A stretch of DNA of 64,000 nt, taken from NCBI GenBank assembly GCA_030248295.1, contig JASANH010000606.1:1302001-1366000 (forward strand), in the 5' to 3' direction. The translations under genes were made by a program, and so were the position numbers. This document shows, in pieces, positions 7,733-63,921 of the stretch. Numbering within the stretch: the stretch's first letter is position 1; every line of letters starts with the position of its first letter. The notes beneath the pieces were generated by a model. It was not told where the DNA came from. It ran no database searches and was given only the letters and a program-made list of their open reading frames with translations. The DNA comes from Mesodorylaimus sp. YZB2_4. Its lineage: Eukaryota; Nematoda; Enoplea; Dorylaimida; Dorylaimidae.

Positions 7733-10700
7733 TTACGTGATTTGAATAATGGTTCCCACGCCGGACCATTCTGGTGGCTCTCGGTAACCAGCGCAATCGT
7801 CATTTTTTACGCAGGAGTGGAACTTGCCAGAAGTATAGGAAATTTTGCCTGGCGCCCGATGCCAAAATCGTCTCGGTGTTGGTTTGGTTTGCCAGTTGTG
7901 TAGTTGAAAGAATTCGGGTGATAACATATCCTCGAATTGGGACCCTGACGCCACGTCGGCCACGTGAATTACTCTGTCACCAGTTACAATATTGACGAGG
8001 GATAGGGTGCTGGTCGGTGTTGTTAAAGGGCTTATGCTTCCTGTAGTTGCGGTCGTAGTTGTGTTTGGGTGGACCTTCTTCGCTGGAGTCACTTTGGCTT
8101 TGGATGGATGCCTGGGTGGGGGTGAGAGTGTTTCGAATGGGGCCACAGCTTCAGCATCTCGTTGACTCTTATGAGCAAACCGCCTTTGGGCTGCAGCCGC
8201 TGCGACTGCTACTGCACTGGCCTCAGAAAGAAGCAGGAATGCTGACCTTCCGGAGCCTGGAGGTGGCTGTTGTTGGCTGGGACTTCCACCACCGCCCGGG
8301 AATCCACCGTACAACCCAGCTGCTCCATAACTGCCGCTAGGTCCAGGCGCGTAGTTGTAAGTTGGACCAACACCTGGTCCAGGTTTCGGCAGATTTCCAG
8401 GAACTGCATATGGCGCTGGTGGTGTGGGCAAGCCCGTGAAGCCGGGTGGAGGAACATAGTTATTATAACCACCAGGGTATCCGTATCCGACCACTGGGGG
8501 GTGTGTTGGTGCTGTTCCTGGCGTCGGTGGGAGCGGTGGCGGAGGGGTGCCTTCAGTTGGTGGCGGTGGACCTTCAGTTGGCGGAGGGGTGCCTTCAGTT
8601 GGTGGAGAGGTGCCTGCAGTTGGTGGCGGTGGACCTTCAGTTGGCGGAGGGCTGCCTTCAGTTGGTGGAGAGGTGCCTGCAGTTGGTGGCGGTGGACCTT
8701 CAGTTGGCGGAGGGCTGCCTTCAGTTGGTGGAGAGGTGCCTGCAGTTGGTGGCGGTGGTCCTTCAGTTGGCGGAGGGCTGCCTTCAGTTGGTGTAGACGT
8801 GCCTTCAGTTGGTGGCGGAGGACCTTTGGTTGGCGGAGGGGTGCCTTCGGTCGGCGGTTGAGTTCCTGTACCCTCAGTTGATGCAGAAACAGCAGGTGTT
8901 CCAGCTGCTGGGGTTCCCTCATCAGTGACAGTCGTTTCTACGATTGGTGTTCCTGGCAACTCTGTTCTGAATACAGCATCTTCTGTAAAAGGTGTTTCTG
9001 AGGCTGGCGGACTGGCAGATGTCGCACCCTCGCTTGCAGTTTCAGCTGGAGCAGTTGTCTCCCTCGTTATTCCACCATACGTTGGAGTAGCAGGCACCGT
9101 AACCTCGCCACTGGGTGATGGAGCTGAAGAAGCTTCTGTAGTTTCGACATAGCCAGGCTCAGAAGCAGTAGTTTCTGCCGCCACAGTAGTCTCTGCGCTT
9201 GAGATTCTGGGTGTCTTAGGAGCCTCGGATGTCGATTCTGGGGCATGTGTCGTCTCTTCCGGTCCGCTAGAAGCTTCCGTCGCTTCAGGAGTGCTCTTAT
9301 TTGGAGATCCAGGAGTGGATCCTTCTTGTGCGCCTGTCGTTGTCACTTCTGGAGTCGCTGCGGGAGTGCCAGCCGTTTCAACTGATGTGGGTTGGGGTGA
9401 GTATCCGCCAGGTGGTGGTCCTTCTGCCGTATATTCTGTCGCTGGCGTACTTGGTGCTGGTGGTGGCTCGAGTGTTGATGCTGGAGCAGTACTTCCCGCA
9501 GGAGCCTCTAGAAATGCGAGGGGTGAGAACAGACTATTCCTTAAAACACATTCTTACCAGATGTAATCGGTGCTGGCGTTTCAGCAGGGCCTGAGGTGGC
9601 TGGAGGTTCTTCTGCCGGAGGGGTTGATTGAGCTGGGGTGTCAGTGTGACCAGTTGTCTGAGCTGGAGTCTCCTCGGGAAATGGGGTTTCGGCAGGAGCT
9701 GTCGTCTCCGCTGGACCTGATGTCTCGAAAGGACTGGAGCCTAGTGTCTCTGCAGGAGTTGACGCATGAGTTTCGGCTGGACCAGGTGTCTCGACTGGGC
9801 CTTCAGTTGTTGGTGCTGGAGTTCCGGCTGGACCTGGGGTGCTTTGAGCTGGTGTCTCTGCTGGACCTTCAGTGGTCGGTGCTGGCGTTTCGGCTGGAGT
9901 AGAACCAGGCGCTCTAGAAGCGGGAGTTTCTGGTGGAGGAGGAGCTGGCGTTCCAGGCTGGCCGTAGCCAGGTTGAGGTTGCTGGCCATAGCCGCCTCCA
10001 TAGCCACTGCCTCCATAACTGCCCCAGGCAGCTGGTGCGCCATATCCACTTTGATCAGAGTCTCCTCCTGGCTGGACAAAGCGTGATGTCGGGCATGAGG
10101 CGACTTGGTCTAAAGCAAAGAGACCCTATAAGGACTTGCTGATTGGTTGCAATGTCTTTACTGGACTGCGCAGCCCAACCGACTCCATGTGCCACCTCTG
10201 TTTTATCGTCCCTATAACATGTGTACGTCCTTGTCTGGATTCGATTCGATCCAGTACATTAGGCATTTATGCGTGATTTGTCAACCAATCCTATGTATGT
10301 GTGTTCACAAAGCCAGCAATGCGATTCTTCTCGCCAGGAAGTATGTCCTTGATTTATCCGCGTGTTCACGAAGGCCAAGTGGCAGTTCAGACATTTGACG
10401 CTCTATTGACCTGATCGACAATAAACCAGTACACTCGTGTCGTATCGCAATAAATTTTAGACGCGTTCAATTTGTAAAAAGCACTATTCAAAAGAAAGCA
10501 CCTGCACGACCAGCAAGAAAGCTCACTGAGCCGCTGTGTGGCCGATATTCCACCAGTCATAAGTGTGCAGCGAAAGAGAACTTAGCATTTGTCATTCATC
10601 TGTCTTATGCGCCAGTATAGTAACAATTAGCGACGATTCGGGGGCGGTGACACGGGCAACCAGGGAGACCCGAAAAAGAACATGGCCCGAATTTGTTCTC

Positions 10701-31627: not shown

Positions 31628-33953
31628 GATAGATAGATATTTTATCATGGTCCCAAGCATCACAGGTGAGCACTAGCGGGCATGAACATATCAAAACATG
31701 CGTGATAAAACACAATGGAGTAGCTATTAAACAAATGTCATCGAGAAAATCTCTTTCTTAAAACACGAAAAACTAGCAGAAACGAGATCGTCAGATAAAT
31801 TGTTCCACAGCACAACAGTCGATGCCAGAAAAGACTGATCATGCGATTTTTTGTGACGTTGAGGTAAGCGTAAGTGGTGGGCTTCTACGTTCCGGCTACT
31901 TTCGCGAAGATCTGTTTTGTGAGTAAAATTGACGTTCCTAAAGTCGTGAAACCCATGATAAAACTTGTAGAGCTGAGCCAACTTGAGCTGCTTCCGGCGG
32001 TCAAAAAGCGAAGCCCAATTACAACGTTGTAAAATATCCGACGATTTGATCGACCAATCATTGAGGTAGAGACAAGCAGCGTGTAATTGCGAGCGTTCCA
32101 AATGATCAATATCTTTCTTTAGTAATGGATCATAGGCGCAAGATCCATAATCGATAACGGACCTTATACACGTTTTATAAACAGTGCCCATAACCTGGCG
32201 GTCGATGTTTCGACCTAATTTTCGACGCAACGCCCCAAGCATCATGCGGGCTTTTCTTGAAATATCAGTAACATGCTCAGTGAACTATTTGGCGAAAATT
32301 TTATTCCGAGATAAGCAAAGCAGTCGGAATAAGCCAAAGATTGACCATGAAGACAGATCTTCGGGGGGTCAATGTTATAATAGACCCATAACGAAAAATC
32401 ATAGCTTTGGATTTTTGAATATTCAGTTCGAGACCGATTGCTCTAAGCCATGAATCGATAAAATCGAGAATCGGCTGAAAACAACAATCAATATCGGCAA
32501 CGTTTCTGATTGGTAGCAATACGAGCAAATCGTCCGCATATCCGATTAATTTCACATTGAGAAATACTGATGGAGACTTCGAAATTTGGAAATCCGATTC
32601 CTGATAGTCTGGAAATCGTTGCAATAATGAATCGATATGACTGATAAAAAGAACTGGTCCTAAGATTGAACCCTGAGGCCCACCTGATGTGACAGGCATG
32701 AGTCGAATGAGCCTCATTGACCACCACAAACTGGGACCTGTTTGATAAATATGAACTCAACTATCGTAATAATTTCGCTGGGACGTTGTGGTTAAACTCT
32801 AAATTCCGCAATAACAAAGCATGCGGGACGCGGTCGAACGCCTTCTTGACGTCCAGAAAGATGCCGGTGACTTTTACAAATTTCGGGTCATCTAGGCGGT
32901 CGTGAATGTATTGCGAGGCTGTGATTAACGCCGAGTTCGTTCCTCGTCGTTTAGAAAACCCATACTGATGCGAAGATATATTGAGACGAGGACGTAACAG
33001 TCGTTCGACGTGGCGCTCGAGTAACTTCGAAATAACGGGCAGCAGTGAGACAGGGCGATAAGCGTCGGGAGAAGATTTATCGCCACCCGCTTCCGGGATT
33101 GGTATAATCTTGGCAATTTTCCATGACGTGGGGAACTCGCCCGAATCCATAATCTTATTAAAAAGAATCGATAAGGGCGTTGAAATCGACGTCGAAATTT
33201 GTTTCAGTATTGCCGCAGTCATACCATCGCCACCCGGGGCGCTATAATTCTTTAATCGATCAATTTCGTGCTCGATAAATGCCGACGAAACCGAATACTC
33301 AGTAAAATCGTCTGGGTCGTCAGGCGGCGGGCAGTATTTTCCGTAATTAGACGAATTGAAATTTGCTGCAAAGCGTTTATTCAGCTCCTCCGCTTTTTCA
33401 AACGGCCCAATCAAATCAACATTAAAATCTTTTTGCAGTGTCGGTATTGCCCGATCCTGTGGGGTGAGGCGACAATAATTAGCCCAGAACTCACCAGAAG
33501 TGTGACAGTTAGCGAACGAATCAGCTATATAATTCGACTTTGCTTTCAAAACTTTCTTCCGACACGACTTCGCAAGACTGATAAAACGAAATCGATCTTG
33601 ATCAGATCCAGAGGCCTTCCAATTTTTATACGCTTCGTTCTTAGCATTAATAAGCGATAACAAGTCTCGAGTCATCCATAATTTCCGTTTATCCATACGA
33701 ACAGATTTCTTCGGCCATGAACATTGATGATGACCATAATTGACGAAGTAAACGATGAACACGCCTCATCGATTGAGCTAGCCGAAATAATCAAATGGCT
33801 TAAATCGCAATCAGATATCAACCGATTAATAAGAGCCCAATCTGCCTTAACTGCCCAACCCAATCTGCCCAAACCAATCTGTCTTACACCTCTAACACCT
33901 AAAAAATTCAGCTGCATTGGAAATGGTGCAAGCACGATTCGTGATATGCGCAC
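31628..33953 (-). mobile_element. decayed non-LTR retrotransposon (LINE), RT region to 3' end
   Basis: Reading on the - strand from about 33953 to 31727 gives, in order, the linker after the endonuclease (WALINRLISDCD), the RT fingers and palm blocks (SAPGGDGMTA, YRPVSLLPVISKLLERH, FLDVKKAFDRVPH), GGPQGSILGPVLF, the catalytic YADD, and a C-terminal region with YDPLLKKDIDHLERSQ and RLYLNDWSI. Together these are diagnostic of Jockey/CR1-like LINE reverse transcriptases. The frame is broken near 33720, near 32740 and near 32280, so no intact protein exists. The endonuclease and ORF1 are missing (5' truncation). The 3' end is followed by a short ATCT/TAGA tandem tail at 31620-31640, typical of LINE tails. 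A second fragment of the same family lies at 2603-3085. Confidence 0.9.
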
Positions 33954-59353: not shown

Positions 59354-59423
59354 TCACTCTTTGAACGACAATCTCCTCTCTTTTTCCTTCTCTGGTTGCT
59401 CTAGTTGCGCAACTTGCTGTTGC

Positions 59424-59492
<69 letters not shown>

Positions 59493-61909
59493 TGTTGTTG
59501 TTGACTACGATTGGAGCTGGAGGACAAATTCGAAGACATCCGCTGTATGCGAGAGTGGTGATGCTGAGATTTGGGTAGCACCAAGGGCACGAACACACTG
59601 CCTGTTCTTTTTAAGCCCTGACGCCTGGGCGGTCGATCTACTCGATCGGCTGTTATGGCAACGATATGATCTTCACCCGCCTGTGTTCTGGTTGAAGCCT
59701 CAGCTTTGATACCGACGGTTCGAACTCGACTCGGTCCTGCACCCGTCCCACTTTCAACATTGACCGCAGCCGAGGAAGTGATGGCACCCGCATCGTCCTC
59801 GGTCGATGTGGAATCGAGGTCCTGTTTGTTGTACAGTCTCCATAGGCATTCGACCAGTTCGGCCGTGAACATGACTCCGGCATGCATGGTCAACATTCTA
59901 AGCACAAAACATCCATCGATTTTGATAAATTCTAACGCGAAATCATCCAATTCCCTTTTCCTCTCAACGCTGCTGAACGTGGAATCGGCCAGCTCCAAAT
60001 GCCTGGCCACGAAACGGACTCGTTCAGTTGGTATGAACGAGACTGTCAACCAGAAGATCAAATTGGTGAACGTGGCCAGCGTAAGAATGGTGTACCACAA
60101 CCAGAGCAATATGAAGATCTTCTCGGTAAATATGTTGATCACAAGCACGCACTGAACCGTGTATCGATTCACATTGGCTAGGGTCCTGATTTGCATATCG
60201 CACAGAGTTACCCGAGGGAAGTTGCCTGAACTTTCCCACGGCCGACCGCCAAGTAAATCACGTAATACACCTATGCCGTACAGGTTGTAGTCATCAGTTT
60301 GTAAGAAGAGATTCATGAGGAATAATTGGCCTACGACGTTGGCCAAGTAGAGTAATTTGATGATGGTGTACAACGTGCTCATGTAGGCTTCGTAGTAGCG
60401 AAGGTTTAGGCACTTGAGGAATCGATGCATAGTCATATGCTTGCTGGCCAACTTGAACTGATGTCGGAACACGCTCTCCAAATGCAAGGCCAATGCTTTC
60501 AAGTGTTTTCGCCTGGTGTCGGGTTCGATGTTGTGCGGGTCGCGAGCTATGGATATGATATCTTGCATTCTTACGCCTAGAAATAGAACGAGAGCTTAGT
60601 TGTGTGCCACGCACGAATGTGTGCTCATTCACTTATCGCTAGAGCCTTTTTACCCTCGCCACATCAGCAAGCTTAGCTGAACTTATCGGCGTGAGCTATT
60701 ATGATCACGTTTCCGCTATCTGTATATAGTGGATTCTATTGCACGGCATTATTCAAGTGTATCCTAACAAGGCTACTGTCGGTGCTGTCAGACTGCCGCA
60801 CTGTCACGACGACGCTAGTCAAAGAAAGTTCAATTAAACATTGTATTGAATTCGTGTCATTAGCATGGGTTTTCATTTCCTGTTCGCCTTCCCTACGCCA
60901 CGTCCCATTCTCACGGAAAAGACAAACGGTCGGCATGAAGCGAAGCCGCCACGAAGCAAGGGAGTTGGGATGAGAGTTGCGTCTAAAGGAGCCAGAATGG
61001 GAGCAAGGTAAGAGCACGTTGAAACATTACGCTGTATTGATTGCGCGTTGAAAGAGGCTCTGTCGGTGTCCTTATCATTAGCATCGCTATATCAAGCCGA
61101 CATTGCGCGGCTGACCAAAATGTGATCAAAGTTGTATGCGAATCTGTACATTGCATGAAAGAAACATGCCTGACCGTCCCCCTCACCAAGAGTCGGTTAC
61201 GCGGCATGTTTGTGTGCTTCGCGGCTGGCGGCTTGCGTGGAGCCAGAGTGGTAGCACTCACCTGACTTATCGTTGAACAATCTCCAAAATAAGCACGGCA
61301 AATAGAAGGACATGGCCTCTATGAGCAAGAAGAATGGCACCCATTGATAATAGGATATATACCGATATTCCCGCTCGGCTATGTCCATGGGTATCTCCTC
61401 GTCGAACGGCACCCAATAGGTGCTCTGCGCCCAGCAGTACATTTCTATAAAGCACAAAACAGAATGCTAATTGGTCACATTTTCCTAATGGTTCACGCTA
61501 GAAAGCAACTGTAGAGCTGTAGCATCCTATCGCAGCCTGAATTGCCTCTCACCACAAAACAGGCACTGAGCACGAGCGAATGGAAGAAGTGCTTCGAGTG
61601 ATTGCCAGCGTGCAGGGTGCGGAAAATAGGACAGACAAGGATCGTTGGAAGCGTGAGACAGGAAAGCTAGCAAGGAAGCAGGATGGGCAGAGTACAGGCC
61701 CTTCGAATACCTGCGTATTGCTCCCAGTTTGTTTTGAATTCTGCAGGCAGCCAGCATTCGAGGGGTCGACCAGCGAACATTTTGAAACTGACTAATAGTG
61801 AGAGCACGATCAGGAAAGTAGTGGTGTAGAGAAAATGCAATCGGTCGATGCTATCGTCCTCCAAAGTGGGACTGAGGAAGGAGACGGTCTTGAGGATCTC
61901 CTTCAACAT
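59354..61909 (-). CDS. innexin (gap-junction protein), form using first exon 1a
   Basis: Exons 61909-61711, 61444-61262 and 60576-59354 (TGA) join in phase to about 534 residues. Four membrane helices are present. Exon 1 carries helix 1 and the family GRPLECWLPAEF. Exon 2 has the first extracellular loop (CWAQSTYWVP) and the innexin signature YYQWVPFFLLIEA. Exon 3 has RVTLCDMQIR, VQCVLVINIFTEKIF and the last helices, then a cytoplasmic tail. The tail ends in a ~30-residue polyglutamine run (59414-59503) and EKERRLSFKE. Innexins form hemichannels and electrical synapses; the sequence style is nematode-like. Two further first exons upstream (62921-63125 and 63723-63921) end in the same phase and have no downstream exons of their own. 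Confidence 0.93.
59414..59503 (-). repeat. CAG/CAA repeat encoding ~30 Gln in innexin tail
   Basis: Thirty consecutive glutamine codons, with a pure CAG block flanked by CAA-rich blocks, in exon 3 of the innexin gene. Confidence 0.9.
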
Positions 61910-62920
61910 GACCCGCGCTCAGCTCCCGCTCTGTTCCTTGTGACCACTTTTCTAATGTCGATGACAAGCAACAATTTGGAAAGTAATTGAGCCGGATGAT
62001 CTCTGGTCAAGTGATAGCATGTCTAGCCAGCCGCCTCGCCCGTTTCCCCGAAGAACAGTGTTTGTCACCGATGCCTGCAATGCAAGGGCGCCGTGCTTTC
62101 TGGTCAAGAAAAATCCATGAGCTAATCAGCAGTTAAACGGTTTTAACGTGCGGAAATATGGCAGCTAGCATAATGCGCGTCACCAATGGCGGGTAGGGTC
62201 GGCGGCAACGGCCGGACGGGGCGCATGATGAGCGAAAGAAGTGAGCCCTGAACGGCGACGCTGCAGCGCCTAGTGATGGAGGCGAACGATAGAAAACGGA
62301 CGAACTCGGCGGGAAGTCTTGGTGCGTTAGAGGAAAAAGAGGTAGGAGACAGCTCGAAACGAAGAAGCGATAAAAACCGTTCCAAGATCAATATCGGGAC
62401 AAGGTGAAGAAAGGTTATTAATGAACACAAGCGTATAACGTTAGAGCTCGCCGACTGACGGAACTCTGACTAAAGGTGCGTGTCCAGCGGGGCTCTCTGC
62501 GCAATTGGATTGTCTTTTGTTGCCTGGCAGCACTTGTTGTGCCCGTCCAAAATGGCCCGACTCCGTGGCCCACCGTTGGGACTGACTGCCGGTCAGGAGC
62601 CCACAGCTGAGCGGGCGTATAATGTGCGGGCCTGCACGAGAATGGCTCGAGCTAATCCATAATTAACGACCCCACTTGATGGACGTCGGCGCGCTCATGC
62701 GGGCCCTTGATGATAGCTAAAGACAACTAAAGAGCGCCATGACACTCACCAACTGAGCTCATCCTGACTGCCCCGACTAAGGGCGCAAGAGCCTGTCCAC
62801 TGCGAGCTGTCATGTGTTAACAAACAGTGCAAACCAAATGAAACCAAATCTGCTTCAAACATGAAGCTTGTACCGCTAGTGCGAGGCTAAGCTGTAACAA
62901 ATAAAATGTCTATTACAGAC

Positions 62921-63125
62921 CCGTATAATCTCTCCAACTTGTTTCGAATTCGGCCGGTACAAAGCACTCCAGCGGTCGACTGATAAACACTTTGAAACTG
63001 ACGCAGATGGTCATGCAGATTAATACAGTGGGTGTGTAGAAAGAGTGGAGGCAATCGAGGTTGCTATCCACCGAATACGGTCTCCAATTGCCCAGCGCTA
63101 ACCGCATTAACAACTCTGGGAACAT
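62921..63125 (-). CDS. innexin alternative first exon 1b
   Basis: The ATG at 63125 opens 68 codons plus one base, ending at a GTCTGT donor (62920). The translation is an innexin N-terminus: MFPELLMRLALGNWRP, helix 1 near FYTPTVLICMTICVSFKVF, then SRPLECFVPAEFETSW. This is equivalent to GRPLECWLPAEFKTNW of exon 1a. It ends in phase 1, the phase needed to enter exon 2 at 61444. No innexin exon 2 or 3 was found between here and 61909. It is therefore read as an alternative first exon of the same gene, or otherwise a truncated duplicate. Confidence 0.8.
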
Positions 63126-63722
63126 AGCACCAACTTGACCTATCGTGCCCCCGATGACCGCCGTTTCAGTTTTTTTCTTATCAAATATTAGCTTCGACGT
63201 TTGACAGCTTTTGCCCGATCACACGGTTTCAATGTCCATTTTTAGGGAAAGATCATTTCTTAGAGCGAAACGGGCAACAGTCATCTTGACGGTGATCAAA
63301 ATCGGGTAATGAGAGAAACGAACAAGCAGGAAAGGCGCCACTTGTACGCTTGATTGAATATTAGCTTTTTGTGCTCCGGTTGGGGCCATTTTTGGAAAGG
63401 GGTTGGAAAGACAACTCGTGCAATATACAGTACGAAGGCACAGCCGAACAATCGAATGCAGAGTCCAAGTGTGTATCCCTTGCGACCAGCATGAAATGGC
63501 GTGGTAGATGGGAAGAGCATTGGATAGGAATAGGACAGGTGTTAAAAGCCAAGTCATGGTGTAAATATACGAATGCTCATTTACATAATTAATATTCACG
63601 CCCAGGGATAAGAGCGCTCGTCCACGCCATCACAATAATCACCCAGGCTCTTTATTCGCTTTAAAGGATGCTCGATTTTTGCGCAGTGTTAGGCAACAAG
63701 AAATACTTGGATAGCGTCTTAC
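63126..63722. other. intron or upstream DNA between alternative innexin exons
   Basis: No innexin exon 2- or 3-like sequence was found here, which supports sharing of the downstream exons. Confidence 0.4.
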
Positions 63723-63921
63723 CAGTGTGCAGTTCCCAAGATGTCTTAAACTCGGGTGGCACCCAGCATTCAACCGGTCGCCTTGAGAAAGTCTTGTTAT
63801 TGACCAGTAAGGCCAAGACGATGGGGAGAGTGGTAGTGTAATAAGCATTCAACCTATCCGCCCAATCATCGTCCGTGGGTGCCCGAAGAAAGGACAAGTT
63901 CTTCAGCACATCGCTCAACAT
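63723..63921 (-). CDS. innexin alternative first exon 1c
   Basis: The ATG at 63921 opens 199 nt, exactly the length of exon 1a, ending at a GTAAGA donor in phase 1. The translation is MLSDVLKNLSFLRAP, helix 1 near TLPIVLALLVNN, then SRRPVECWVPPEFKTSWELH. It is clearly homologous to exons 1a and 1b. It has no private downstream innexin exons in the window, so it most simply splices to exon 2 at 61444. The promoter would lie upstream, near the window edge. Confidence 0.82.

Follow-up and report, generated by a model that had tools for sequence, protein, structure and literature searches.

The closest described counterpart of the gene considered here is shaking-B of Drosophila, whose variants ShakB Lethal, Neural and Neural+16 differ in the first third of the protein and have the later part in common, and in which the N-terminus affects gating and rectification (PMC5412853, PMC4197764). 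Rectification of electrical synapses is more generally tied to molecular differences between the two half-channels (PMC4197764). Among the nematodes, the L, S and SR isoforms of unc-7 in Caenorhabditis elegans use an alternative exon 1 with separate promoter regions (PMC2694797), and several complementary DNA isoforms of inx-10 and inx-11 have been cloned (PMC3793928), inx-10a having an expression pattern of its own (PMC7489761); the "alternative first exons" named in a further report belong to olrn-1, not to the innexin (PMC2213652). In this study we describe an innexin gene in the dorylaimid nematode Mesodorylaimus sp. YZB2_4, found in a window of 64,000 nucleotides (nt) that corresponds to positions 1302001-1366000 of contig JASANH010000606.1 (hereafter C4) in an assembly of 145 Mb and 1067 contigs. 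The cuticle-collagen N-terminal domain of nematodes is matched 133 times in this genome, in accord with its nematode source. The reading we favor, with a probability of roughly three in four, is that of one innexin gene with four alternative first exons arranged in tandem ahead of one shared body.

The gene lies on the minus strand, and its first exons are labelled, starting with the most distal, 1z, 1a, 1b and 1c; coordinates given without a contig are those of the window. Exon 1a (63921-63723; 199 nt, 66 codons plus 1 nt) encodes the N-terminus, the first transmembrane segment (TM1) and the first half of extracellular loop 1 (E1), scores 33.4 bits on its own against the Pfam Innexin profile, and ends in CTG before the donor GTAAGACG. 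Exon 1b (63125-62921; 205 nt, 68 codons plus 1 nt), the most diverged of the set, scores 34.7 bits and ends in CGG before GTCTGTAA, while the proximal exon 1c (61909-61711; 199 nt, 66 codons plus 1 nt) scores 49.0 bits and ends in CAG before GTATTCGA. A preliminary description of this DNA had proposed these three exons, each with an innexin N-terminus, and in this it was correct: each begins with ATG, is open and in phase 1 directly before a GT, each passes the Innexin cut-off of 25 bits alone with a match at the start of the profile, and each carries the cysteine of the RPxEC motif. Its count of three, however, fell short. A whole-genome Pfam search together with a profile built from 11 first exons located a fourth, 1z, at C4:1367113-1366915 (equivalent to 65113-64915 in window numbering), 0.9-1.1 kb past the end of the window; it too is in phase 1, exceeds the cut-off, and ends in CTG before the donor GTAAGACA. 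Protein identity to 1c is 61% for 1z, 55% for 1a and 45% for 1b. No fifth first exon was found at an expectation value (E) of 1 or below in the upstream sequence searched to C4:1380800.

Downstream of the array stand one exon 2 and one exon 3, as the preliminary description had also proposed. Exon 2 (61444-61262, minus strand; acceptor TTTATAG, donor GTGAGT) supplies the rest of E1 and the second transmembrane segment (TM2) with its YYQWV motif, and exon 3 (60576-59354, minus strand; acceptor TTTCTAG) runs in a single frame from the cytoplasmic loop to the C-terminus and the stop codon. The reading frame is kept when exon 2 is joined to any of the four first exons, and each first exon with exons 2 and 3 yields an innexin of 534 or 536 residues without an internal stop. 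The shared part without its tail scores 251.6 bits against the Pfam Innexin profile (PF00876; profile positions 51-331), and the whole protein likewise matches this profile, as befits a member of the family; of the two E1 cysteines, the first lies in every one of the four first exons and the second, like YYQWV, in exon 2. A second innexin body was sought in C4:1351100-1380800 and none was found there. Nor did a DNA search of the assembly reveal an allelic copy of the locus, the matches being the locus itself at 100% and others at 67-90% identity.

The extent of the exchanged segment can be read from INX-6, the closest relative among solved structures (E 3.2e-44) and the only C. elegans innexin returned by the solved-structure search. 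In the alignment to INX-6, exon 1 gives way to exon 2 after residue 72, midway through E1. Exon 1 therefore encodes the N-terminal part and TM1 together with Cys58, the first cysteine of E1, and all isoforms have in common a segment that includes Cys76, extracellular loop 2 (E2), the cytoplasmic loop and the C-terminus. The isoforms had been predicted to differ only in the N-terminus and first helix; these do differ, but the swap extends further, to mid-E1, and takes the first E1 cysteine with it. In INX-6 the pore is narrowest at the N-terminal funnel and has a second constriction at a small E1 helix (PMC5146279). The funnel falls inside the swapped exon, and the small helix probably does so as well. 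Asp25 of INX-6 can, according to published reports, come into contact with the C-terminal domain (PMC6084585, PMC5146279); at the aligned position 1b has a serine, and the other three first exons carry aspartate.

In anatomy and frame, the predicted exons thus have the arrangement of shaking-B, in which alternative first exons replace the N-terminus and TM1 and the remainder is shared. Both are single innexin loci with an alternative front and a common later part, and the design is nearly the same, except that the shared part starts at the extracellular end of TM2 in shaking-B (PMC5412853) and in mid-E1 here, that the nematode gene offers more alternatives (four) and has array-bearing relatives, such arrays being present in four genes, and that the present case is known from genome sequence alone. 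The preliminary description had named both shaking-B and unc-7 as analogues. Shaking-B is the better match (PMC5412853), whereas unc-7, although it too is a nematode innexin whose exon 1 has an alternative, is a weak one, for its isoforms vary upstream of the canonical innexin start, where exon 1S alters only that stretch, and leave TM1 and E1 constant (PMC2694797). The likeness to inx-10 and inx-11 lies in the existence of multiple isoforms and stands at the level of isoform reports.

If the first exons were remnants scattered by duplication, similar sequences would be expected without an innexin body, and a genome-wide control bears on this point. With the 1c protein as query, 46 genome rows were obtained at E ≤ 1, of which the 42 with E ≤ 0.001 were kept; the four weaker rows dropped were C19:1002998, C19:1003176, C6:1145530 and the second half of the distal exon of the paralogue on contig C1 described below. 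With 39 hand-picked body anchors as landmarks, each match was paired with the innexin body that followed it most closely on its own strand, at a distance of no more than 10 kb; all 42 matches found a body, leaving 0 orphans. First exons are therefore not strewn through the genome as debris and, given the Pfam scores as well, a chance origin is very unlikely. Thirty-three bodies received at least one first exon and six of the 39 anchors received none; exactly one was assigned in 29/33 bodies and several in 4/33, namely four on C4, three on C1, four on C51 and two on C7. These counts include a few near-identical contigs and, drawn from the 100 best-scoring candidates, are lower bounds.

The paralogue on C1, at 2.40 Mb, has three first exons and is 93% identical to the C4 gene over 230 aligned residues of part of exon 3. 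Its proximal first exon shares 95% protein identity with 1c, and its distal first exon matches 1z but is split by an additional intron of 58 nt (L014:4886-4943), which follows RPL and is missing from its counterpart 1z; this is likely a case of intron gain within an alternative exon. To compare selection on the pairs we used the proportions of nonsynonymous (pN) and synonymous (pS) differences. The distal pair gives pN 0.060 and pS 0.78 (51 of 66 codons, the part behind the extra C1 intron being excluded), the proximal pair pN 0.026 and pS 0.81 (66 codons), and the compared part of shared exon 3 pN 0.051 and pS 0.75 (229 codons). These values argue strongly that the distal and proximal first exons are under protein-level constraint, with their order kept in both genes. 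In the tree of first exons, the two distal exons group together (support 95/96), as do the two proximal ones (83/78, which falls short of the star threshold), a pairing which suggests that at least two alternatives predate the C4/C1 duplication; both were probably present before the split and, to judge from the substitution pattern, have been kept as protein since. The tree of the shared bodies comprises eight rows.

Between the C4 and C1 regions, blastn alignments at E ≤ 0.001 coincide with the coding exons and overrun them by a few bases. The sole alignments outside exons are two alike stretches that lie over 5 kb further upstream than the distal exons (L010:1437-1768 vs L015:8483-8826), one of 71 bases at 80% identity and the other of 117 bases at 70%, which may be the remains of a duplicated neighbor or shared control elements. 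Separately, 791 bases of C47 (L027:3759-4547) reproduce, at 98.7% identity, the C1 innexin region at its 3' end; the copy is not one of the C4 gene.

Arrays are also present in a second innexin group, in which the first intron lies 7 bases earlier and is in phase 0. Here the gene on C51 has four first exons and that on C7 has two, the most distal of the C51 series being diverged yet open from its ATG to its GT donor. Among the first exons common to C51 and C7, the proximal shows pN 0.13 with weak support (83/60) and the more distal pN 0.22 with support of 95/89. This group presumably resembles INX-10. Genes with one first exon each are found on C48 (with a copy on C528), on C258 and at 955 kb of C1. 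The first exon ends in E1 in seven genes, all four array genes among them.

The recurrence of arrays speaks to whether the C4 locus could be an artefact of assembly, in which complete innexin genes stood in tandem and their bodies were lost or collapsed. The assembly does contain near-identical pieces on separate contigs: C48 and C528 (L018, L019) are 99.6% identical over 7 kb and carry the same innexin, a likeness that could stem from a recent duplication or from haplotypes assembled redundantly. The locus is, however, interior to a contig of 1.7 Mb, and arrays occur at four loci; these form two paralogue pairs, in each of which the shared exons keep the same order. We therefore regard loss or collapse of the bodies as scarcely credible.

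Several points nonetheless weigh against a single gene with four working first exons. The array is known from the genome sequence of one nematode alone; the counts of innexin genes are lower bounds, as the best 100 candidates were scored; and synonymous sites are saturated, for which reason no formal ratio of nonsynonymous to synonymous rates is available for most pairs and pN and pS stand in its place. The remaining points concern how transcripts begin and whether 1a and 1b are in use. With regard to the former, a matrix made from nine acceptors of these genes (training scores 7.2-11.3) was applied to the 120 nt that precede each of 15 first exons, and acceptor-like sites scoring at least 5 appeared in 3 of the 15 upstream regions, as compared with 35% of random windows, the matrix being small and the background not matched for composition. 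A shared upstream leader exon was accordingly rejected as a general explanation, and the lack of enrichment favors true first exons with starts of their own over internal cassettes. The individual sites are less uniform. Before 1b and 1c the best scores are 0.1 and -1.7, but strong acceptor-like sites precede two first exons of the second group, C51_2 (8.9) and C7_1 (8.3), and a moderate one, ATTTTGTAG, scoring 5.6, lies 28 nt before the ATG of 1a, so that a leader exon or trans-splicing may operate at these three.

These sites, together with the use of spliced leaders by nematodes, are the grounds for a different account, in which a single far-upstream promoter would produce a leader that is spliced in cis to one of four mutually exclusive coding exons, or a spliced leader would be added in trans to each. 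A search of the genome for SL1 gave no match, but its control was silent too and the search is therefore uninformative on trans-splicing. Set against the absence of enrichment over the 15 upstream regions and the poor sites of 1b and 1c, we consider this account improbable, though it is the most serious of the alternatives.

As to the use of 1a and 1b, neither has a supported partner in the C1 paralogue in the first-exon tree, and the case for them consequently rests on the intact frame, the ATG, the donor and the Pfam match. Exon 1b, in addition, has a diverged sequence with the longest branch of that tree (1.53) and a weak donor (GTCTGT), and lacks the aspartate aligned to Asp25 of INX-6. 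Such features are what would be seen if some first exons, most plausibly 1b and less so 1a, were disused relics of partial duplication. The constraint seen in pN and pS strongly opposes disuse of the distal and proximal exons. For 1a and 1b, pS exceeds pN in every computed pair that contains either of them, both lie above the Pfam cut-off, and no bodiless first exon occurs among the 42 matches. Moreover, in simulations of neutral change (substitutions only, 4000 runs each) the frame, the ATG and the GT all survived one change per site with a probability of 0.0005-0.0013, although the simulation and the comparison of pN with pS are both blind to a recent loss of use. On balance, disuse of some first exons appears more doubtful still than a common leader. 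In our judgement 1a is quite probably in use, and we lean, with less assurance, towards the same view of 1b. What endures of the preliminary description is its core, alternative first exons on a shared body, which is the best-supported account of the locus and is strengthened by the paralogues; the number of exons, the extent of the swap and the comparison with unc-7 had to be revised.

A few further features of the window and of its contig can be noted. The C-terminal tail of the innexin contains a polyglutamine tract of 30 residues encoded by CAA and CAG codons (59414-59503, minus strand), which is likely to be variable in length. Elsewhere in the window, on the minus strand, are an open reading frame at 32761-33762 that resembles, judged by eye, the reverse transcriptase of a retrotransposon lacking long terminal repeats (non-LTR), and one of 537 residues at 7733-9346 with a mucin-like PPPTEGT repeat. 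An Rfam scan of the window returned no match at gathering scores. Two other innexin genes of C4 (566460-567658 and 619420-620618) have similar exon scores, are oppositely oriented and are separated by about 52 kb; they are probably a recent inverted duplication.

Returning to the array, it most likely works through alternative transcription start sites: each first exon would have a promoter of its own and would be joined in phase 1 to the common exons 2 and 3. The subunits made by different cells might then be alike in E2, cytoplasmic domains and C-terminus yet differ in pore funnel and voltage gate, and where two partner cells use different first exons the junction between them could be asymmetric and rectifying, as with the shaking-B variants. 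Transcription of each exon, separate promoters, choice by cell type and an effect on gating are all elements that we infer. Mammalian UGT1A and the clustered protocadherins are familiar examples of variable first exons set in a row, each under a separate promoter and joined to constant exons; they differ from the present case in that they encode unrelated proteins, belong to vertebrates and form larger arrays. A broader proposal, which we put forward tentatively and at something less than even odds, is that two innexin groups, with first introns 7 nt apart and in different phase, built arrays of 4+3 and 4+2 (13 first exons), perhaps independently, and that the module constricting the pore, made up of the N-terminal helix, TM1 and E1 as far as its middle, is swapped so that promoter choice sets conductance, gating and rectification in the manner of protocadherins and UGT1A.

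Alternative innexin first exons as such are already known; what appears to be new, as far as gene structure can tell, is the expansion of a shaking-B-like arrangement into arrays in four genes. Among the titles and abstract openings of the part of the open literature surveyed, no tandem first-exon array in an innexin gene was met, and an earlier description is quite possible. The arrays at this locus and in three related genes suggest that cells could tune their electrical coupling by the choice of transcription start site. Four pore fronts on a constant body would also constitute natural chimaeras for mapping the residues of the N-terminus, TM1 and E1 that govern gating and rectification. If the reading proposed here is true, a nematode has more channel types at its disposal than a count of its innexin genes would indicate.

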